Part shown: in pieces, positions 42,844 through 51,068 of the stretch
How the letters are laid out: each line of letters opens with the position of its first letter
How positions within the stretch are numbered: position 1 is the first letter of the stretch
Assembly (NCBI RefSeq): GCF_001645125.1
Contig: NZ_LXKA01000220.1
Coordinates: 43,881 to 107,880 of the forward strand
DNA from: Paraburkholderia ginsengiterrae
Lineage (GTDB): Bacteria; Pseudomonadota; Gammaproteobacteria; Burkholderiales; Burkholderiaceae
Direction of reading: 5' to 3'
DNA length: 64,000 bases
Translations under genes and position numbers: made by a program
Notes under the pieces: generated by a model
Database searches by the model: none
Told to the model about the DNA's origin: nothing
The model's input: the letters and a program-made list of their open reading frames with translations, nothing else

Positions 42844-42916
42844 GTCTTTGACTTTGCAATTTTCCGCCACAAGTGCGCACGAGTTGGCGTAGCCAACTCC
42901 TAAGTCGGTTGCCCCT

Positions 42917-43050
42917 TTGGTAAAGCGTCGCGAACTGACGCCACCTGTCACCGATTGATCCTTTCGAGCGCGCCTTTGACCCATTCACGACTGGGCGAAT
43001 GTAACGCCTCAATTTAAAGTTTGCTCTCCTATTCACACATCGAATGAATC
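42917..43050 (+). repeat. Promoter-leader repeat, copy A (before DUF4148 gene at 43057)
   Basis: Core 98 bp from GATTGATCCTTTCGAGCG to CACACATCGAATGAATC, directly before a DUF4148 start codon. It aligns without gaps with copy C (offset exactly 4500 bp) including about 36 bp more upstream (TTGGTAAAGCGTCGCGAACT), and with copies B and D in the core. It contains a TTGACC hexamer, AATTTAAAGT and a conserved 5' leader. Probably a duplicated promoter. Confidence 0.75.
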
Positions 43051-43056
43051 CATCAA

Positions 43057-43320
43057 ATGAAACACTATCTGATTACTGTTCTCATCGCCGGTTCGGCTTC
43101 TATTTCCGTCTTTGCGCAAACCCCGGCGCCTGCGCAGCCCGCCAACAACGGCGCGCAAATCGCTCAAACTGGGAGCCCGGCACAGAATGGAGAATGGACG
43201 TCCCCACAAGATCAACCGGCGATGGAAAAGACGCGTACGCAGGTTCGTCAGGAACTCATGCTAGCGGAGCGTGATGGCCAGCTAGCCACGCTCAACTCGA
43301 CCGTCTTCGCGCATCAATAA
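43057..43320 (+). CDS. DUF4148 family secreted protein
   Basis: Exported protein of 87 aa. Signal peptide KHYLITVLIAGSASISVFAQ ends at FAQ near residue 20. A Pro/Asn/Gln-rich linker leads to the DUF4148 core KTRTQVRQELMLAERDGQLA near the end. It follows repeat copy A and precedes a tiny lipoprotein gene by 14 bp, so the two are probably cotranscribed. Function unknown. Confidence 0.82.
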   Translation: MKHYLITVLIAGSASISVFAQTPAPAQPANNGAQIAQTGSPAQNGEWTSPQDQPAMEKTRTQVRQELMLAERDGQLATLNSTVFAHQ

Positions 43321-43334
43321 AGTATCTAAATCCC

Positions 43335-43490
43335 ATGAATCGATCTACATGGCTAAAGCGTGCGGTCATCTATGTTGCGACCGCAGTTTCGATGGGGCTG
43401 CTTCTCGCAGGCTGTGCAATGCCTGCCACGAACCCGGCCAACGGATGTGTCGGTCCGCCAGAGTTTTGCAATACGTACTTCGGTAGCTGA
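43335..43490 (+). CDS. Small lipoprotein, 51 aa
   Basis: A short gene with a clear lipoprotein signal: basic start MNRSTWLKRAVIYVATAV, hydrophobic core and lipobox GLLLAGC with Cys at residue 27. The mature peptide is only about 25 residues and contains three more Cys (NGCVGPPEFCNTYFGS counts two of them plus the lipidated one), suggesting a disulfide. It starts 14 bp after the DUF4148 stop; the ribosome site is weak. I know no function. Confidence 0.6.
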   Translation: MNRSTWLKRAVIYVATAVSMGLLLAGCAMPATNPANGCVGPPEFCNTYFGS

Positions 43491-43738
43491 GCAGTCGCGG
43501 CACATTCCTGGTAATGTGGAATGTGGCGCTTGAGTGCCGGCGCATTGGCTCGACGACACAATTCAGCCGGAACGAGAAAAGATTTCGAAGAGTTTCTCAC
43601 AGTGGTGTGTTGTCCTGATGGTCAATCAACGTCCTGGTACAGTTCCGGACGACCACGGATAGTCGCGGTATCCGCTCGGATCCTTACACCGAAACCGTCT
43701 GTCGCGGGCGGTCCGTACAAACTCAACTGGAGCTTGTG

Positions 43739-44359
43739 ATGAAAAAGCATTGGTCTGTGAGAACCGCAGAGGACTTCGGTCGCACCAGATTGTCCCCGTC
43801 TTTTTTTATGCGCGACTTTCTGCACAGCGAGATCGCTGCCATTCAGAGCTTTCAAAATTTGCCAGATGACCCGGCAGCTGCCGTGCGATCTGGCCGCGAG
43901 CTCTGCACCCAATTACTTGAGCCTTTACAAGCCACATTTGGCCGGCTGGCGATTCGCTCAGGCTACCGCTCTCAACAGGTGAACGAATTTGGCTGTCGGC
44001 ACCGGCTCAGTTGTGCCTCCAATGAGAAAAACGCTGCGAGGCACATCTGGGATCATCGCAACAAGAACGGCATGGGTGCCCTCACTTCCGTAGTCGTGCC
44101 GTGGTTGGCCGACAGGATCGATACGGGAATCACATGGCAGTCAATGGCATGGTGGATCCACGACAACCTGCCGTACAGCGAGTTGCAGTTCTTCCCAAAG
44201 CTGTTTGCGTTTAATATCGGCTGGCACGAAGTACCGAAGCGGACCATATACAGCTTCATTGAACCCCGTGGATATCTGACCAAACCTGGTTTCGCGAACC
44301 ACACAGGTGATCACAGTTCCTTTTACGTCGATTTCCCAAAGCTTGTCGTCGTGCGTTGA
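43739..44359 (+). CDS. Hypothetical protein, remotely peptidase M15-like
   Basis: Soluble protein of 206 aa. FFMRDFLHSEIAAIQSFQNL, LEPLQATFGRLAIRSGYRSQ resembles the start of D-Ala-D-Ala carboxypeptidase (M15) domains, where RSGYRS is typical. The expected SxHxxGxAxD zinc motif is only loosely present (AARHIWDHRNKNG), so activity is doubtful. TGGAG precedes the ATG at 43739; a GTG one codon upstream is also possible. No signal peptide. It sits alone before the convergent tag gene. I treat the family link as tentative. Confidence 0.65.
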   Translation: MKKHWSVRTAEDFGRTRLSPSFFMRDFLHSEIAAIQSFQNLPDDPAAAVRSGRELCTQLLEPLQATFGRLAIRSGYRSQQVNEFGCRHRLSCASNEKNAARHIWDHRNKNGMGALTSVVVPWLADRIDTGITWQSMAWWIHDNLPYSELQFFPKLFAFNIGWHEVPKRTIYSFIEPRGYLTKPGFANHTGDHSSFYVDFPKLVVVR

Positions 44360-44432
44360 CGACCGTCGATTCTCACTTCAGTACAGCGCTTGCTGTCATA
44401 AACAACGTCGAAGGTCGACGCTCGTACTCGGC

Positions 44433-45143
44433 TTAATCGCGCGGCCATACACCCGAACTTCCACGGCGGTGACTACCTACGAGGTGCGTGTCGACCATCC
44501 CTGTCGCTTCCATTAGTGCATACATGGTAGTCGGCCCGACGAATGTGAATCCTTTTTCTCTGAGTGCCTTGCTGAGCGCAATCGACTCGTCCGACGTGGT
44601 TGGCACCTCCGCCACCGTCATGGGTATCGGCGTTTTCTTTGGCTGATACGACCATATGAAATCGACCAGGCCACCTTCCAAGCGCAACGCTATCGTCGCT
44701 GACGCATTTTTTATCGTTGCCAGAATCTTTGCGCGATTCCGGATTATCCCAGGGTCGGCCAGTAACCGCGTCACGTCATCATCGTCGAATTCCGCTACCG
44801 CCTCGGGCACGAAATTGCTGAAGGCCGCCCGAAACGCGTCGCGCTTTCGAAGTATGGTGATCCACGACAGCCCTGACTGAAAACTCTCAAGCGCGAGCCG
44901 CTCAAACAGCCCGCGCTCATCTCGAACGGGCATTCCCCACTCTGTATCGTAATACTCCCTGAGGAGCGCGTCCGACGCGGCCCATGGCGTGCGCACCAGA
45001 CCGTCGTCACAAGTCACCGGTCCCGCAGCTTCTGCCCGAGCCGGCATGGTACCGCCGCTGTCTGGGTTGAGCTCGACAGTCGAGTTTGTCGATGGCAGGC
45101 GTTTTTTCGGTGCTTTTGCGTCTGGCTTGCGCTTCGCTGGCAT
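44433..45143 (-). CDS. tag: DNA-3-methyladenine glycosylase I
   Basis: Base-excision DNA repair enzyme removing 3-methyladenine. Core motifs are CDDGLVRTPWAASDALLREY, EWGMPVRDERGLFERLALES with the catalytic Glu, QSGLSWITILRKRDAFR, and the C-terminal GFTFVGPTTMYALMEATGMV with DTHLVG and the zinc-binding His-Cys region, though the terminal HxxxC pattern is weak (HLVGSHRRG). At 236 aa it is about 45 longer than E. coli Tag owing to a Lys/Pro-rich N-terminal extension (AKRKPDAKAPKKRL). A start at the internal Met33 would give normal length. Tag family certain. Confidence 0.92.
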   Translation of the reverse strand: MPAKRKPDAKAPKKRLPSTNSTVELNPDSGGTMPARAEAAGPVTCDDGLVRTPWAASDALLREYYDTEWGMPVRDERGLFERLALESFQSGLSWITILRKRDAFRAAFSNFVPEAVAEFDDDDVTRLLADPGIIRNRAKILATIKNASATIALRLEGGLVDFIWSYQPKKTPIPMTVAEVPTTSDESIALSKALREKGFTFVGPTTMYALMEATGMVDTHLVGSHRRGSSGVWPRD

Positions 45144-45626
45144 ATACGTTTTGTTCGATTGGAACTGAGGTCACTGAACCGCTTCCTTCTGAAGCGACCC
45201 ATGGTTGCTTTTGGCATGGGCAAAGCGGTAAGCCAGGGGACGAAGACCTCTCAGCCATACCGGTGCCTTTAGCTGTACTCGTGCCTAGTGATTCGACGCG
45301 ATGCCGCCCAGGCGCGAGAACCACGACGATGTCGACGCCAGCAGCCGCCGTAGCCTTGTGTGCAATAGTTTTACCATGAAATTTCTCCAGCGTGGAATGT
45401 GTTTGGATTTCCGGGCACGTGCCCGGCGTGTAATGCGGCACGGCCTGAGGCGCGGAAGCCAGTTCCCGATCAGTCGCGCTGCTGGTGCTCTACTTGGTAT
45501 TGACTTCGTCCGTCGCGCGAAAGTCAACGTCGACATCACGCTGCCTCCTTTACGGCAGTCGACCGTCATCACCAGGACGGTCGAAAATCATGGCACAGAC
45601 TGATGATGTTCCTGGGCTGCGCCTAC
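45144..45626. other. 483 bp without a supported gene
   Basis: Overlapping short frames only. A minus-strand segment RLIGNWLPRL is faintly like SymE-type toxins but the remainder does not support it. Confidence 0.4.
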
Positions 45627-46022
45627 TCATAGCACTGCAGCAACGCAGTCGATTTCAATGTCAAAGCGTCCCGGCCAGGCCGGCACGTTGACGAAAATTC
45701 TGGCCGGGGGGTCCTTTGGAAAGTACTTTGCATAGATGGCATTTACCGCCGCAAACTGATCGACTGACGTGCAGTAGACGTTACACTTGAGGACGTTTTC
45801 CAATGACGAGCCGGCAGTTTCCACACACAGCTTCAGCTGCTCAAGCACAAGTTCAGTTTGTCTTTCGATGGGTGCGTCAATTACATCTCCAGTCGCTGGA
45901 TCAAACGGAGGAAAGCCAGATACGAAGATCAGGCTGCCGTGTCGCGTAACCGCCGATGTGGGCGCCTTCCAGCGCTCGAGATACGTTGACAAGGGTTCAA
46001 CGCGGATAGTCTCTCGCTTCAT
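45627..46022 (-). CDS. RidA/YjgF-family protein, copy 2
   Basis: RidA-fold protein of 131 aa. It shows VTRHGSLIFVSGFPPFDPAT, IERQTELVLEQLKLCVETAG, the active-site PPARIFVNVPAW and ends FDIEIDCVAAVL. It is distant from the RidA at 30446 and belongs to a different subgroup (Phe-Pro rather than Gln after SG). A ribosome site is modest (GGAGAG). Flanked by unassigned sequence and an NTF2-like gene 117 bp downstream. Confidence 0.88.
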   Translation of the reverse strand: MKRETIRVEPLSTYLERWKAPTSAVTRHGSLIFVSGFPPFDPATGDVIDAPIERQTELVLEQLKLCVETAGSSLENVLKCNVYCTSVDQFAAVNAIYAKYFPKDPPARIFVNVPAWPGRFDIEIDCVAAVL

Positions 46023-46139
46023 GTTTCTCTCCGTCGAGGTTCATTGATACCCGTTAAGGGCTTACCGGTAAGACGTTGATAGCTGACACTGCCAGGCCCG
46101 GCGCTGCGTGAATGTGCTGCGGCGCCGGGTCCAGCGTGT

Positions 46140-46571
46140 TCATGAAGCGGGCTTGTTCAAGCCGGCAACGAGTGCCTTGAAGCCGACCCATCCCCAATAG
46201 ACCCGATGGTGGGCAATCAACCCGTTCTCGATGTCCATCACCTCGACAAGATCAACCTGATCGCCGTGCGGCGTGTCGCGCGGATACTCCCAGGTCAGTT
46301 GCCGGCCATTGGAGAAGAACGTCCCCGTTCGATACCAGCGGCCGAGATCGTTCTGCAGCTTGCGAAGACCCGCGTCGAAGAAAGGCTGGATTTGCGCTTT
46401 GCCCTTCAGGATGCCCTCGGTGCTGTCTTTCAGCGTCACCAGGATCAAAGGGGTTTCGAGGATGGCGTCCTCGGCATAGAGCGCCATCAGACCTTCCAGA
46501 TCGCGGCTCAGGATGGTTTCGTGCCAGCGTTCATAAATGTGGCGGATTTCGGCATCGGTATTTCCGGTCAT
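46140..46571 (-). CDS. SnoaL/NTF2-like protein
   Basis: Cone-fold protein of 143 aa. Typical segments are EIRHIYERWHETILSRDLEG, LMALYAEDAILETPLI and NGRQLTWEYPRDTP with VDLVEVMDIENGLIAHHRVY. Members include polyketide cyclases, isomerases and non-catalytic binding proteins. TTGGAG precedes the ATG at 46571. No signal peptide. Function undetermined. Confidence 0.85.
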   Translation of the reverse strand: MTGNTDAEIRHIYERWHETILSRDLEGLMALYAEDAILETPLILVTLKDSTEGILKGKAQIQPFFDAGLRKLQNDLGRWYRTGTFFSNGRQLTWEYPRDTPHGDQVDLVEVMDIENGLIAHHRVYWGWVGFKALVAGLNKPAS

Positions 46572-46737
46572 GGTTGACTCCAAATAAAAAATAGCTTCCA
46601 TTTAATCAGTCTTGTCACAACGCCATCGCGGCACCGTGACAGCGACAGATCCAACGTTGAGTTGCTGCGCACTTAGGGGACCGTGCTCAATGACCAGATG
46701 CCTTCGGCATCCTGTTGGCACGACAACCATCAACGTG

Positions 46738-47046
46738 TTACGGATGGCTGTACATCGCGTCCCAGTCGGCCTTCGAGACGGCCGGGCGTCCCGTGTCCGA
46801 CGAGTCGCTGGCGACACCGCCGACGCCCGTTGCAGCGTTTTGTGCTGCCACCTTGGCTTCAGCAGCCTGGATGTCGGCCGGATATGTCGTGTCGTCGGCG
46901 GCGGCGGGGTTATAGCCCGCTTTCTCGAGCTGGATCAGTTCGGCGCGTACCTGTGCACGGGTGACAGGCGCATTCGATTGGGCAAACACGGCAACGGGAG
47001 CAGCAAGGGCAGCGGCAACAACAACGGCTTGAATAAGGGACTTCAT
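46738..47046 (-). CDS. DUF4148 family secreted protein
   Basis: Exported protein of 102 aa. Signal peptide KSLIQAVVVAAALAAPVAVF ends at FAQ. The DUF4148 core is VTRAQVRAELIQLEKAGYNP, then YPADIQAAEAKVAAQN and a C-terminal DWDAMYS-like end seen in many Burkholderia members. Its start is preceded by repeat copy B on the same strand. Function unknown. Confidence 0.85.
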   Translation of the reverse strand: MKSLIQAVVVAAALAAPVAVFAQSNAPVTRAQVRAELIQLEKAGYNPAAADDTTYPADIQAAEAKVAAQNAATGVGGVASDSSDTGRPAVSKADWDAMYSHP

Positions 47047-47052
47047 GCTAGC

Positions 47053-47150
47053 GATCCTTCGATGTGTGGATAAGGAGCCCCAACTTTAATTTGAGGCGTT
47101 ACGTTCGCCCAGTCGTGAACGGGTCAAAGGCACGCTCGAAAGGATCAATC
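47053..47150 (-). repeat. Promoter-leader repeat, copy B (before DUF4148 gene at 46738)
   Basis: The reverse complement of 47053-47150 matches the 98-bp core of copies A, C and D, running GATTGATCCTTTCGAGCG to CACACATCGAAGGATC, and ends just before the DUF4148 start at 47046. Copies B and C are in opposite orientation about 300 bp apart, each driving a different gene. Confidence 0.75.
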
Positions 47151-47406
47151 GATCCAGACGCTTCGCCGCTAGAGGTGGTCACGCCCGCGTTGTTGTACGG
47201 GATCACTGGCCTCCTTTCGCAAGCCCGTCCGTTACAGGCGGATCCAAGTGGTCCAGCCCGCTACGGGCATGTTGCAGGAGCTCGCGCCGCGTGCCCGTTT
47301 CCGCATCGAAGCGCCCGTACGCGTAACGGATTCCTTTGGCCTCGACGGAACGCGTACAACGGTGCCGAGTAGAAGGGTCGACCGATCCCGGCGAACCCAC
47401 AGCAGC

Positions 47407-47550
47407 GGTTGTGCCGTTGGTAAAGCGTCGCGAACTGACGCCACCTGCCACCGATTGATCCTTTCGAGCGTGCCTTTGACCCGTTCACGACTGGGCGAAC
47501 GTAATGCCCCAATTTAAAGTCTGGGCTCCTATCCACACATCGAAGGAATC
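47407..47550 (+). repeat. Promoter-leader repeat, copy C (before OsmC gene)
   Basis: Aligns gap-free with copy A from about 47417 to the leader end, with about ten substitutions in the core, and places CGAAGGAATC as ribosome site directly before the OsmC start at 47555. Confidence 0.75.
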
Positions 47551-47554
47551 AATC

Positions 47555-47992
47555 ATGGAAAAGATCGAGAAAGTTCTCGCCTCAGGCACGACCCACGCCA
47601 CGATCAATCGCGACCCCAATGTCGAGCCCGGCGCCCTCGACCTCAAGCTGTCGGCGCCTGGCGTCGAAAGCCTCGAGTTCATCGCTACCGACCTGCACCC
47701 GAGAGCCGAGCAGTTGTTTGCGGGCGCGTGGTCGGCCTGTTACACCACAGTGTTCGGGAGGGTGGCCTCGCTGAAGAAGGTCACGCTGCCGCCCGACTAT
47801 TCCGTGGACATCCAGGTAAGCATTGGGTCCTCCGGTGCCGGGTATTGCCTGGGCGCCGAACTCACCGTCCGCGTGCCGGGTCTGGGAACGGAAGTCGTCG
47901 AGGAACTCGCGCAACTGACCCATCAGCATTGCCCGTACTCGAAGTCTGTGCATGGCAACATCGAGGTCATCACGAACATCGTCACGGTGTGA
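47555..47992 (+). CDS. OsmC/Ohr-family peroxiredoxin
   Basis: Thiol peroxidase of 145 aa that reduces organic hydroperoxides. The peroxidatic Cys62 lies in FAGAWSACYTTVFG and the second Cys126 in THQHCPYSKSV, as in Ohr/OsmC. GAAGGAA precedes the ATG at 47555; the longer frame runs into the repeat. It follows repeat copy C, so it is probably coregulated with the genes after copies A, B and D. Confidence 0.9.
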   Translation: MEKIEKVLASGTTHATINRDPNVEPGALDLKLSAPGVESLEFIATDLHPRAEQLFAGAWSACYTTVFGRVASLKKVTLPPDYSVDIQVSIGSSGAGYCLGAELTVRVPGLGTEVVEELAQLTHQHCPYSKSVHGNIEVITNIVTV

Positions 47993-48145
47993 TCGGATAA
48001 GGCGCACGCGTCTCACCAAACGTCTTTTCGCGTCGGTGATTGCGCATTTATGCGTCGCTGGGCCGTTGCGCATTGTCGTATTTCATGCGCACCGGCCACG
48101 GCATCGGATGGGGCGTGGTTTATTTACTTAAGTAGGATGGAAGCA

Positions 48146-48538
48146 ATGTTTAGTCACGTAGTGGTCGGTACCAACGACCTGAAAAAAGCAAAGCACTTTT
48201 ACGATGCTGTGCTGGGCGCGCTCGGCTATGGTGAGGGCCTCAGCGACGATAACGATGCGCGCAGGCGCTATGTCTATCGCACCGACACCGGGCTTTTTAT
48301 CGTCACCCAGCCGATCAATGGTCAGCGTGCTAGCCCTGCCAATGGTGGAACGATTGGCTTTGCCTGCCAGTCGACCGAGCAGGTCGATCGGTGGCATGCC
48401 GCAGGGGTCGCTAACGGTGGAGCTTCGGCTGAAGCGCCGCCCGGCATGCGTGAGGCCGCGTCAGAGAGCCTCTATCTCGCCTATCTGCGCGATCCGGACG
48501 GTAACAAGATCGGTGCCTTGTGTCGCGCGCCGGCCTGA
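48146..48538 (+). CDS. VOC-superfamily protein, copy 2
   Basis: Paralogue of the VOC gene at 22700, 130 aa. It opens MFSHVVVGTNDLKKAKHFYD, has PANGGTIGFACQSTEQVD and closes LAYLRDPDGNKIGAL. About two-thirds of residues are identical to copy 1. I place the start at 48146, matching copy 1; an ATG at 48137 is also possible. The leader does not contain the HxlR palindrome of copy 1, so regulation differs. Confidence 0.85.
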   Translation: MFSHVVVGTNDLKKAKHFYDAVLGALGYGEGLSDDNDARRRYVYRTDTGLFIVTQPINGQRASPANGGTIGFACQSTEQVDRWHAAGVANGGASAEAPPGMREAASESLYLAYLRDPDGNKIGALCRAPA

Positions 48539-48894
48539 AGCGAACGACGGCGCCAAAGGCGCTCTCGACCGACGGCGACCATAGCGGCACTCAGGCGCCG
48601 CCGCAAGAACTCTACAATGCGAATAGCCGGGGCCGCTGACATTGACACCTGGCTGTCGTATATACGGCAGCGGCCTGGCGTTCTTTGTATTGCGATTAAT
48701 GGCACGTCATATGCCTTGTGACACATCAGGCTCCAGCCACAGGGGATGCAGATGAAATCCATGGATCCACTGGCACCCCGCAAATCGAATGCTCGCAGAC
48801 TATCTGTGCCTTGCGGTCTACTCCGCGAATCTGGCGCTCGGCAGGCGAACGGCGCTTAACGGTCGTATTGCCGCTATCAATGGGGTTGTCCGAT
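48539..48894. other. 356 bp before the AraC gene
   Basis: No gene is supported. An in-frame extension of the AraC gene covers the right part but has no family resemblance. Confidence 0.4.
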
Positions 48895-49911
48895 ATGGAA
48901 TACCAGACTGACTGGCTCACCCGATTCATGGAACTCGTGACGGTCACCGGGAAACTGCAAACTCGGTGCGCGTTGGGAGCGCCGTGGGAAAAAAAATACA
49001 CCCAGGCCGGACCTCAGGAAATACCGTACCACATCATATTGACCGGCACGGCCTTACTCGAGAATTCGGATGATGGGGCGACCTATGAATTACGGGCGGG
49101 TGACATCGTGTTGCTGCCGCACGGTTCGGCGCATGTGTTGCACGACGGCAGCGGTGCGGCACCGGTCCCGTCCAAGGAACGCGTTTCAGGTAGTTTCCTG
49201 GTTAGCGAAAATGGCGGCACTGGCGAGTCGCTGGATATGTTGTGCGGGCGATTTTTCGTTGCGCCGCCTCATGACCGGTTAATCCGAAGCTATCTACCGT
49301 CGGAACTCGTGGTACGCACCGAAGACTATGGCAGCGCTGCACAGAGCCTGCCGCAGGTCGAACGTCTGAGCCGGCTCGTCGCGCTGATGCGGGCCGAAGC
49401 GATGGACAATGCAGTGGGCAGCGGTGCGATCCTGAACGCGCTGTCGTCTGCGCTGTTCGCGTTGACGTTGCGGGCGGCCGGTGAGGCCGGTCACGCACGT
49501 ACGGGGGTGCTGGCCCTCGCCGCCCACCCAAGGCTCGCGCCTGCGGCCGCTGTAATGTTCAGCGACCCAGCTCGAGCGTGGACGCTTCCGGAACTGGCCG
49601 GGCTATGCTGCATGTCGCGCGCCACGTTCATGCGGCATTTTCAGGCGAGTCTCGGCTGCTCCGCGATGGACCTGCTGACTGATATCCGGGTGAGCACCGC
49701 CGCGAACGCATTGCGAAAATCTACATCGTCCATCGAGACGGTTGCCGATCTGGTCGGGTATCAGTCGGTGTCTGCGTTTGGGCGCGTGTTTGCTCAGCGG
49801 ATGGGTATGACGCCGGGCGACTGGCGGCAGCAGGCACTTAAGGGCGGTACCCCGCAGGTATCGGACGACGAGGCAGACGCGGCTGGTGAACGCGATCGCG
49901 GGGGCGAGTGA
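48895..49911 (+). CDS. AraC-family regulator (AraC_N cupin type)
   Basis: Transcription factor of about 338 aa. The N-terminal half is a cupin of the Cupin_6 type: APWEKKYTQAGPQEIPYHII, YELRAGDIVLLPHGSAHVLH. The C-terminal half has two helix-turn-helix motifs, WTLPELAGLCCMSRATFMRH and SIETVADLVGYQSVSAFGRV, closing GMTPGDWR. I favour the ATG at 48895 (MEYQTDWLTRF) from family alignment; a longer frame starts at 48718. It lies between repeat copies C and D and may regulate the AhpD-like gene or efflux operon downstream; this is inference. Confidence 0.88.
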   Translation: MEYQTDWLTRFMELVTVTGKLQTRCALGAPWEKKYTQAGPQEIPYHIILTGTALLENSDDGATYELRAGDIVLLPHGSAHVLHDGSGAAPVPSKERVSGSFLVSENGGTGESLDMLCGRFFVAPPHDRLIRSYLPSELVVRTEDYGSAAQSLPQVERLSRLVALMRAEAMDNAVGSGAILNALSSALFALTLRAAGEAGHARTGVLALAAHPRLAPAAAVMFSDPARAWTLPELAGLCCMSRATFMRHFQASLGCSAMDLLTDIRVSTAANALRKSTSSIETVADLVGYQSVSAFGRVFAQRMGMTPGDWRQQALKGGTPQVSDDEADAAGERDRGGE

Positions 49912-50426
49912 ACGCGGGACCACTCGTCGTGCGCCTGCCACCAGGCGCACGCGACGCTCGCTAATCACGCAGGAGCCCCGGTTCGAAAGCTATGAGTGTG
50001 GCTCGTCGTCGGGCCTCACTTACCGCGCGTGAGACATATAACGGATTGTTCCGATGGGACGACTGCAGCCGACGCTTGGCGATCGCCAGGATCGCTAGCG
50101 AAAACAGGCTGAAGAACAGCGCCGTTTTACCGGCCACGCCCTTATCGGGCACACCGCGATGACGCAACAGTTTTCGCAGTGCGCCGTCCGCCATGTATCG
50201 CCCTGATCTTCTCGCGCCCCGAGGCGATGCGCCATTTCATCCCCCTGCCCGTCGTCTTGCCGCGCTTGTCTGCCCCAATGCAGCGCGCGTCGCTGGACAG
50301 CTTCCTTGCGGCCGTGAAGCTGGGCATGCGCCTTTACGGCAAAGGCAGCGCATCGGTAGCCGTGCCGATTACACCGTGAACCGTGAAGGGCGAATCGTCG
50401 GGAGACGGATGCCGGTTGCAGCCTGA
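49912..50426. other. 515 bp without a supported gene
   Basis: A plus-strand frame at 50179-50379 encodes RPEAMRHFIPLPVVLPRLSA and further plausible sequence, but has no motif or ribosome site. Otherwise nothing is seen before repeat copy D. Confidence 0.4.
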
Positions 50427-50524
50427 GATTGATCCTTTCGAGCGAGCCTTTGATACATTCGCGACTCGGCGAACGCAACGCCTTAATTTAAAGTTTGGGA
50501 TCCTATTCACACATCGAAGGAATC
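50427..50524 (+). repeat. Promoter-leader repeat, copy D (before AhpD-like gene)
   Basis: GATTGATCCTTTCGAGCG to ATTCACACATCGAAGGAATC, 98 bp, aligned without gaps to copies A and C but more diverged (TTGATA instead of TTGACC). The similarity begins abruptly at 50427. GAAGGAA serves as ribosome site for the gene at 50529. Confidence 0.75.
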
Positions 50525-50528
50525 TCAA

Positions 50529-51068
50529 ATGAGCCGTATCTCCATACCCGACGTCGCATCCGCCACTGGTGCTGTTGCAGAAGCCTACGCCGTGACCAGG
50601 AAAGTAACCGGTGGCGTTGTTCCGAACCTGTTTGCCGCGATCGGCGCCTTGTCCCCCGATGTCCTCAATTCGTATATGAACGCTGAAGCGGTCCTCGGTG
50701 CAGGCACGCTTGGCGGTAAGGATATCGAAACAACAAAGGTGGTCGTCAGCGAATTGAATGGCTGCGACTATTGTGTTGGCGCCCACGTCATGCTCGGGAA
50801 AATCGTGGGGCTTTCGCCGGAATCGCTCAAGCAGATCCGCGCAGGCAATCCCACGGGCGATGCAAAGCGTGATGCGCTTGTGCAATTCGTACGGCTCATT
50901 CAGCAGAGCAGCGGCACGATAACCGCGGAACAGTTTGCGGCAATCAAGGAGGCCGGTTACACCGATGCGCAACTGGTTGAAATTGCGCTTGCGATCGCAC
51001 TGACAGTGTTTACCAATACCTTCAATCGTTTCAACGATACGACGCTGGACGTGCCGCGCGCGGATTGA
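50529..51068 (+). CDS. Carboxymuconolactone decarboxylase/AhpD-family protein
   Basis: Alkylhydroperoxidase-like helical protein of 179 aa. The redox pair Cys79 and Cys82 with His86 lies in SELNGCDYCVGAHVMLG, the AhpD-type CxxC motif rather than the non-redox decarboxylase version. The N-terminal VVPNLFAAIGALSPDVLNSY is typical. It follows repeat copy D and precedes the RND efflux operon by 111 bp. Likely a peroxide-reducing or disulfide protein. Confidence 0.88.
   Translation: MSRISIPDVASATGAVAEAYAVTRKVTGGVVPNLFAAIGALSPDVLNSYMNAEAVLGAGTLGGKDIETTKVVVSELNGCDYCVGAHVMLGKIVGLSPESLKQIRAGNPTGDAKRDALVQFVRLIQQSSGTITAEQFAAIKEAGYTDAQLVEIALAIALTVFTNTFNRFNDTTLDVPRAD

Follow-up and report, generated by a model that had tools for sequence, protein, structure and literature searches.

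A repeat read as a promoter, probably activated by an RclR-like regulator, before four genes of Paraburkholderia ginsengiterrae

How does one promoter come to stand before several unrelated genes, and what would it do there? The question is raised by a 64,000-nucleotide stretch of the Paraburkholderia ginsengiterrae genome (assembly GCF_001645125.1, contig NZ_LXKA01000220.1, positions 43,881 to 107,880 of the forward strand; this whole stretch is hereafter the window), in which a repeat of ∼98 bp directly precedes two genes for small DUF4148 proteins, an OsmC/Ohr-like gene, and an AhpD-like gene. We propose that the repeat combines a promoter and its 5' leader, that it is activated by an RclR-like protein in response to oxidants, and that it spread from the OsmC gene by duplication and recombination; taken as a whole, we consider this model quite probable.

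Four copies of one repeat within 7.6 kb

The repeat occurs at 42953-43050 (A, + strand), 47053-47150 (B, - strand), 47453-47550 (C, + strand), and 50427-50524 (D, + strand). Extended to the start codons and, for A and C, to their common upstream flank, the copies and their predicted parts are as follows.

42906..43056, + strand: copy A, operator, promoter, and leader before the DUF4148 gene at 43057-43320; half-sites from 42955 and 42976, -10 TAAAGT at 43015-43020
47047..47150, - strand: copy B, before the DUF4148 gene at 46738-47046; half-sites from 47148 and 47127, -10 at 47088-47083
47406..47554, + strand: copy C, before the OsmC/Ohr-like gene; half-sites from 47455 and 47476, -10 at 47515-47520
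50427..50528, + strand: copy D, before the AhpD-like gene; half-sites from 50429 and 50450, -10 at 50489-50494

Copies A, C, and D align in a single ungapped frame of 150 nt (42906-43055, 47406-47555, and 50380-50529), with an offset of exactly 4500 bp from A to C and 2974 bp from C to D and with whole-frame identities to copy A of 90% for C and 66% for D; copy B is inverted and has one extra T in its leader. Over ∼100 bp, blastn identities to copy C are 94% for B, 90% for A, and 87% for D (E 2e-35 to 1e-27), values that exclude chance as the source of the copies. Alignment bears out the positions, the gap-free match of the forward copies, and the A/C offset given in a first-pass annotation of this DNA, and Pfam agrees with it on the genes behind the copies (DUF4148, DUF4148, OsmC, and CMD). 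Two of its lengths need correction: the repeat ends 4 bases (C and D) or 6 bases (A and B) before the ATG, where 6 to 8 bp had been given, and the further upstream sequence common to A and C, in a block that begins at 42906/47406, measures ∼47 bp and not ∼36 bp. The ribosome site of copy A is altered (GAATGA versus GAAGGA).

The first-pass annotation had also proposed a search of the complete genome, and with the repeat as query this returned the four full copies and no further one among the 393 contigs of the 8.53-Mb assembly, the fifth match being 23 bp long (E 1.4). The full copies of this genome are thus local, falling within 7.6 kb, and not dispersed.

The repeat has the layout of an AraC-activated promoter

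Every copy contains two direct half-sites 21 bp apart (TTGATCCTTTCGAG from 47455 and TTGACCCGTTCACG from 47476 in copy C), and TAAAGT lies 39 nt past the start of the second half-site in each. The leader from there to the ATG is 36 nt in A and B and 34 nt in C and D and includes the ribosome site. With TAAAGT taken as the -10 element, the half-sites begin at about -72 and -51. This is how AraC-type class II promoters are built, among them araBAD (I1-I2), where a pair of direct half-sites is spaced by 21 bp and its second member touches or overlaps the -35 element; the 21-bp spacing adjoining the -35 is found in all four copies and in their homologues. The resemblance is one of layout: the half-site sequence differs from that of araBAD, and the signal proposed here is thiol oxidation rather than sugar binding. 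The repeat is best understood as a promoter that depends on an AraC-type activator, together with its leader, which upholds the earlier view that a whole promoter and 5' leader, ribosome site included, had been set before unrelated genes. A promoter of the extracytoplasmic function (ECF) sigma factor type was rejected by eye, CGTC not being conserved among the copies.

An RclR-like regulator encoded between copies C and D

The candidate activator is encoded within the cluster itself.

48895..49911, + strand: Cupin_6/AraC-family regulator, RclR-like, between copies C and D; start picked by homology (a longer GTG frame opens at 48718)

Its product matches PF12852 (Cupin_6; E 2.7e-31) and PF12833 (AraC helix-turn-helix; E 1.9e-18), and its best NCBIfam match is RclR (NF040475; E 4e-37). 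We call the protein RclR-like and do not claim membership in RclR proper, the score lying under the equivalog cutoff. It is 28% identical to Escherichia coli RclR over 314 aa, and Cys21 and Cys89 of that protein have their aligned counterparts in Cys25 and Cys117. Both cysteines are kept in all 31 proteins of an alignment that comprised the window regulator, E. coli RclR, and homologues from 29 of 80 named loci, which had been gathered with the AraC protein as query. According to excerpts of a review (PMC7464077), RclR is activated by oxidation of Cys-21/Cys-89 to a disulfide; from this and the conserved pair we infer, on good grounds, RclR-like sensing by the window regulator.

Promoter and regulator occur together within the genus. 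A DNA search with copy C gave matches in 10 of 145 genomes of the same genus, nine of them full-length and one (G003) of 23 bp; the 23-bp matches in G003 and in contig 24 of G000 were set aside as chance or fragment. AraC orthologues of at least 74% identity are present in 8 of 143 genomes (the next best is 61% identical), and all eight are among the nine with a full copy, G125 being the exception. Six genomes (G064, G135, G011, G097, G007, and G107) have one full copy each, 80 to 87% identical to copy C, which stands before the OsmC/Ohr gene in a cluster that holds the AraC gene, with a second OsmC gene and a VOC gene (found in five of the six, and broken up in G011) also nearby. When the 15 full copies are aligned, a count that leaves out two partial copies of G030 (L022, near 13.4 kb and 10.7 kb), 14 run up to an intact start and the fifteenth stands before an OsmC remnant whose start codon is lost. 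Promoter and regulator lie in one cluster, so co-occurrence within the genus could by itself be hitchhiking.

The layout across the wider regulator clade

More distant relatives bear on this point. A scan with half-site scores over 22 distant-homologue loci of the genus (L041-L062, 54 to 61% identity) found the 21-bp spacing and the same -10 position, ungapped and near the regulator gene, in 16. We then searched with a pattern of 21 specified bases, covering the two half-sites and the -10, and allowed at most three mismatches. It matched 80 times in 41 of the 143 genomes, against 4 matches for the reversed control, and 61 of these 80 matches lie no more than 6 kb from an AraC homologue; the sequence within that distance amounts to ∼0.1% of the DNA. 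Among the named loci the pattern was found in 48 of 80 at three mismatches and 61 of 80 at four (reversed control, 0); for those outside Burkholderia, Paraburkholderia, and Caballeronia, the counts were 25 and 36 of 51, compared with 0 of 51 for reversed and 0 of 153 for dinucleotide-shuffled controls. Judged from these matches, the layout follows the AraC clade over many genera and before varied target genes.

Column conservation was read from 39 loci of L095-L173 with at most three mismatches, sites identical to earlier loci having been dropped. Columns that had no part in the pattern are conserved too, namely AGTCTCGAAA next to the -35 and, within the leader, GGCTCC, and the columns give a wider -35 consensus of TCGAAA, 17 bp from TAAAGT. 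Conservation is strongest upstream of and at the -10. At rhizobial sites the spacing to the -10 seems slightly shorter.

Several results weigh against the proposed regulator or the reach of the layout. G125 has a full copy before a DUF4148 gene (L185/L024, C3:1075351), and its only listed AraC homologue is 47% identical; P. ginsengiterrae itself encodes a second AraC homologue (C223, 58% identity) that might use the same sites or compete for them. The window regulator scores 128 bits against the NF040475 equivalog cutoff of 400 bits, and the window copies have a poor -35 hexamer. Six of the 22 genus loci lack a convincing site in the half-site scan (three of them, L057, L059, and L060, fit the later pattern at three to four mismatches), 19 of the 80 genome matches are not within 6 kb of a listed homologue, and the pattern is missing from 32 of the 80 named loci at three mismatches and from 19 at four. 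The pattern was itself derived from the window and genus loci, and pattern and loci are related by descent, so the counts do not represent independent events. At the E. coli rcl locus, none of the eight best half-site scores falls between rclA and rclR.

The first two of these findings would also suit a real promoter under another regulator, whether an AraC paralogue, OhrR/MarR, or an ECF sigma factor, with the linkage to the AraC gene reflecting hitchhiking; so would two Burkholderia cenocepacia ohr genes that lie near putative OhrR genes according to excerpts of PMC2830190. The tracking of one AraC clade by the layout, through many genera and before different targets, argues against this explanation. 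Moreover, direct repeats 21 bp apart beside the -35 are an AraC-type layout, and palindromic sites would be expected for MarR proteins. We regard control by another regulator as improbable, and the Cupin_6/AraC gene between C and D is the likely activator of all four copies.

The conserved leader raises another explanation, that what is mainly conserved is the function of a structured RNA (a hairpin masking the Shine-Dalgarno sequence, or a riboswitch-like element), with the promoter incidental. The leader GGCTCC-TAACCACCTGATGAA-GGAGTC can indeed fold over the ribosome site; all six stem pairs form in 16 of 44 leaders, variants with GGCTCG/CGAGCC and GGTTCC/GGAACC among them, and 84.4% of cells are paired against a shuffle mean of 81.6%, a value reached by 3 of 2000 shuffles (17 of 2000 with 33 distinct arm sets). 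However, double changes are not in excess of the shuffles (four cells against a mean of 1.9, a value reached by 222 of 2000), and at least 12 of the 44 leader rows (L069, L074, seven of rhizobial type, L153, L155, and L168) were trimmed with an eye on the stem, which biases the counts in its favor. None of the three window copies counted forms the full stem (5 of 6 pairs in C, 5 in D, and 2 in A), many targets have the first half of the leader with no start codon nearby, and the conservation maximum lies at the -10 and upstream of it. No Rfam match was found in the window stretch or in the leaders of relatives; in 12 homologous loci, Rfam gave one tRNA match and one snoRNA match under the gathering score, both outside the leaders. 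An RNA element as the main function is therefore very unlikely in our judgment, and, as a part of the AraC-type promoter unit that we favor, a hairpin that hides the ribosome site within the leader is no more than suggestive. In several relatives the leader can form a stem GACTCC/GGAGTC that contains the ribosome site, and in alphaproteobacterial members (leaders of L098-L132, L153, and L155) such a hairpin may covary.

Target genes and a proposed oxidant response

The targets of the window copies, and the one further gene of the cluster, are listed below.

43057..43320, + strand: DUF4148 small protein, target of copy A (Pfam)
46738..47046, - strand: DUF4148 small protein, target of copy B (Pfam); homologues elsewhere have a different common upstream region
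47555..47992, + strand: OsmC/Ohr-like peroxiredoxin, target of copy C (Pfam, NCBIfam)
48140..48538, + strand: VOC/glyoxalase-like protein, between the OsmC and AraC genes; no repeat of its own, perhaps part of the OsmC transcript
50529..51068, + strand: AhpD-like protein (carboxymuconolactone decarboxylase [CMD] family) with CxxC, target of copy D (Pfam CMD)

From 115 sites we ran Pfam on 34 hand-picked target proteins, 33 from other loci together with the window AhpD. Nitroreductases (12) and CMD/AhpD proteins (11) were most frequent, followed by DUF417 (5), alpha/beta hydrolases (2), and OsmC, GST, CzcE, and DUF4148 (1 each). E. coli RclC is annotated as a DUF417 protein in the K-12 locus, and excerpts of PMC7950407 report that Pseudomonas aeruginosa RclR induces the AhpD-like gene rclX under hypochlorous acid (HOCl) and hypothiocyanous acid (HOSCN). 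By these analogies, reactive-chlorine or thiol-oxidant defense is the likeliest theme of the targets, and chlorine-type oxidants are the better guess for the inducer, judging from the relatives of the regulator. A common stress regulon, to which the DUF4148 proteins might belong, was suggested earlier on the ground that two of the four targets are of peroxide-detoxifying families. Those two are thiol-peroxidase families, and a common regulon that includes DUF4148 stays the best reading of the cluster.

In the mechanism that we infer, each copy would act as one activator-dependent promoter of the sigma-70 type with its 5' leader. The RclR-like protein would bind the two half-sites, of which the second adjoins the weak -35, and recruit polymerase to TAAAGT. 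The probable trigger would be reactive chlorine, or thiol oxidants like it, oxidizing the two conserved cysteines, and, the activator being shared, OsmC/Ohr, AhpD, and the two DUF4148 proteins would be induced together.

An RclR-like AraC regulon is a known kind of system. In the P. aeruginosa RclR-RclX system, as described in excerpts of PMC7950407, RclR adjoins the AhpD-like gene that it induces, and here copy D would likewise drive an AhpD-like gene beside an RclR-like regulator; the difference from that description is that the promoter stands before four genes, OsmC and DUF4148 among them. With E. coli RclR-rclABC (PMC7464077, in excerpt) the window system shares the two redox cysteines, at the low overall identity given above, and the DUF417 family of RclC recurs among several targets of the homologous promoters, whereas no such site was found in the rclA-rclR intergenic region, the set of targets differs, and the window regulator falls under the NCBIfam RclR cutoff. 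We found no description of the operator layout of the clade, its fourfold local use, or the capture of DUF4148 in the open literature, a search outside of which lay most subscription papers and bioRxiv. The layout offers a testable operator sequence for a large RclR-like clade in alpha-, beta-, and gammaproteobacteria, by which genomes could be searched for reactive-chlorine and thiol-oxidant regulons, and it links DUF4148 proteins with a probable oxidant response.

Behind this type of promoter, at five sites away from listed regulators (L174-L178), we also observed a small, apparently secreted protein with the motif SGYGPAPFYHPA.GAPASQRGQS; the member scanned (L177) had no Pfam match. In B. 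cenocepacia, array data under NaOCl (PMC2830190) include exported proteins that are induced along with the OsmC-like gene (BCAL1763-1766).

How the promoter came to stand before four genes

In this cluster the growth of a regulon through duplicated and replaced promoters can be traced, and at DUF4148 there is evidence of replacement. Among 22 DUF4148 homologues that do not stand behind the repeat (L189-L210, 77 to 86% identity), 21 have a different upstream sequence in common (E 6e-10 or better by blastn against L201) and only L210 lacks it; three of the 22 are in genomes with a copy at OsmC (G007, G064, and G107). The DUF4148 genes of the window (the copy B target), of Paraburkholderia elongata (G030), and of G125 have the AraC-type promoter upstream instead. 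Comparison of these upstream regions establishes that the promoter was swapped at DUF4148 here.

The flanks of the copies fall into two sets. Copies A and C and two P. elongata copies form the first, with C and P. elongata sharing ∼130 bp; copy D and two other P. elongata copies form the second, sharing ∼290 and ∼500 bp. The flank of copy C is matched more weakly at the OsmC loci of G135, G107, and G007, which have a single copy each, and the ancestral position is therefore probably that of C. The OsmC gene carries the first flank in the window but the second in P. elongata (16-kb position), and recombination within the repeat has therefore probably reassorted flanks and genes. P. elongata also has, at L022 9749-10031, an OsmC remnant behind an intact copy of the first set, its start codon lost and its frame cut after ∼60 codons; past the remnant come a DUF4148 gene, whose identity to the copy A target is 49%, and the same small gene as is found after that target. 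Copy A looks like this arrangement minus the OsmC remnant. Together with the nitroreductase loci described below, this suggests a general route by which the promoter is duplicated with its gene and the gene is then lost.

A different origin would be insertion of a 98-bp non-autonomous element resembling a miniature inverted-repeat transposable element (MITE), which would carry the promoter to the front of genes between imperfect terminal inverted repeats (ATTGATCCTTTCGA ... TCGAAGGAATCAAT in copy C). Copy C pairs 13 of 14 end positions, six or seven of the inner seven pairs form in each of the 15 full copies, and copies B and D begin near the left end of the putative element. The outer seven pairs are not kept, however (copy B forms 7 of 14), and the left and right arms coincide with the proposed operator half-site and the ribosome site. 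The common flanks vary by pair, from ∼47 bp beyond the core for A and C to the far longer ones of copy D, and so mark no fixed end; no target-site duplication was seen in the aligned flanks, which were read by eye only, and the searches made turned up no identically ended copies with such duplications at unrelated loci. Nor do the distribution of copies, confined to 7.6 kb of an 8.53-Mb genome, the six genomes with a single diverged copy before OsmC, and a layout that spans Proteobacteria fit such an element. We rejected the terminal-repeat idea on the variable flanks and the lack of dispersed copies and consider it extremely unlikely.

The differing flank lengths and the P. elongata remnant instead favor duplication and recombination over a transposon. 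The promoter would first have belonged to the OsmC unit and would have reached the other genes by local duplication and recombination within the repeat, their own upstream regions being replaced or bypassed. How the cassette moved, which the first-pass annotation had left as unknown, is thereby narrowed to local duplication and recombination with loss of the original coding sequence. A bolder version, which we offer as speculation and think rather unlikely, is a portable two-layer oxidant switch that couples AraC-type activation to a leader hairpin over the ribosome site, spreads by duplication followed by gene loss, and conscripts small secreted proteins (DUF4148 here, the GYGPAPFYHP protein elsewhere) as an envelope defense against reactive chlorine.

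Two further observations concern the genes found with these promoters. At L099, L102, L137, and L164 (Mesorhizobium, Bradyrhizobium, Variovorax, and Cupriavidus), a nitroreductase appears to open with a short AhpD-like N terminus directly after the leader, as though AhpD had lost its coding sequence except for the start. The native DUF4148 upstream region contains a near-perfect palindrome, ACGAACAG-GG-CTGTTCGT, some 20 to 60 nt before the start; a loose pattern finds it in 20 of the 22 homologues (all except L207 and L210), and it may be an operator or an RNA hairpin.

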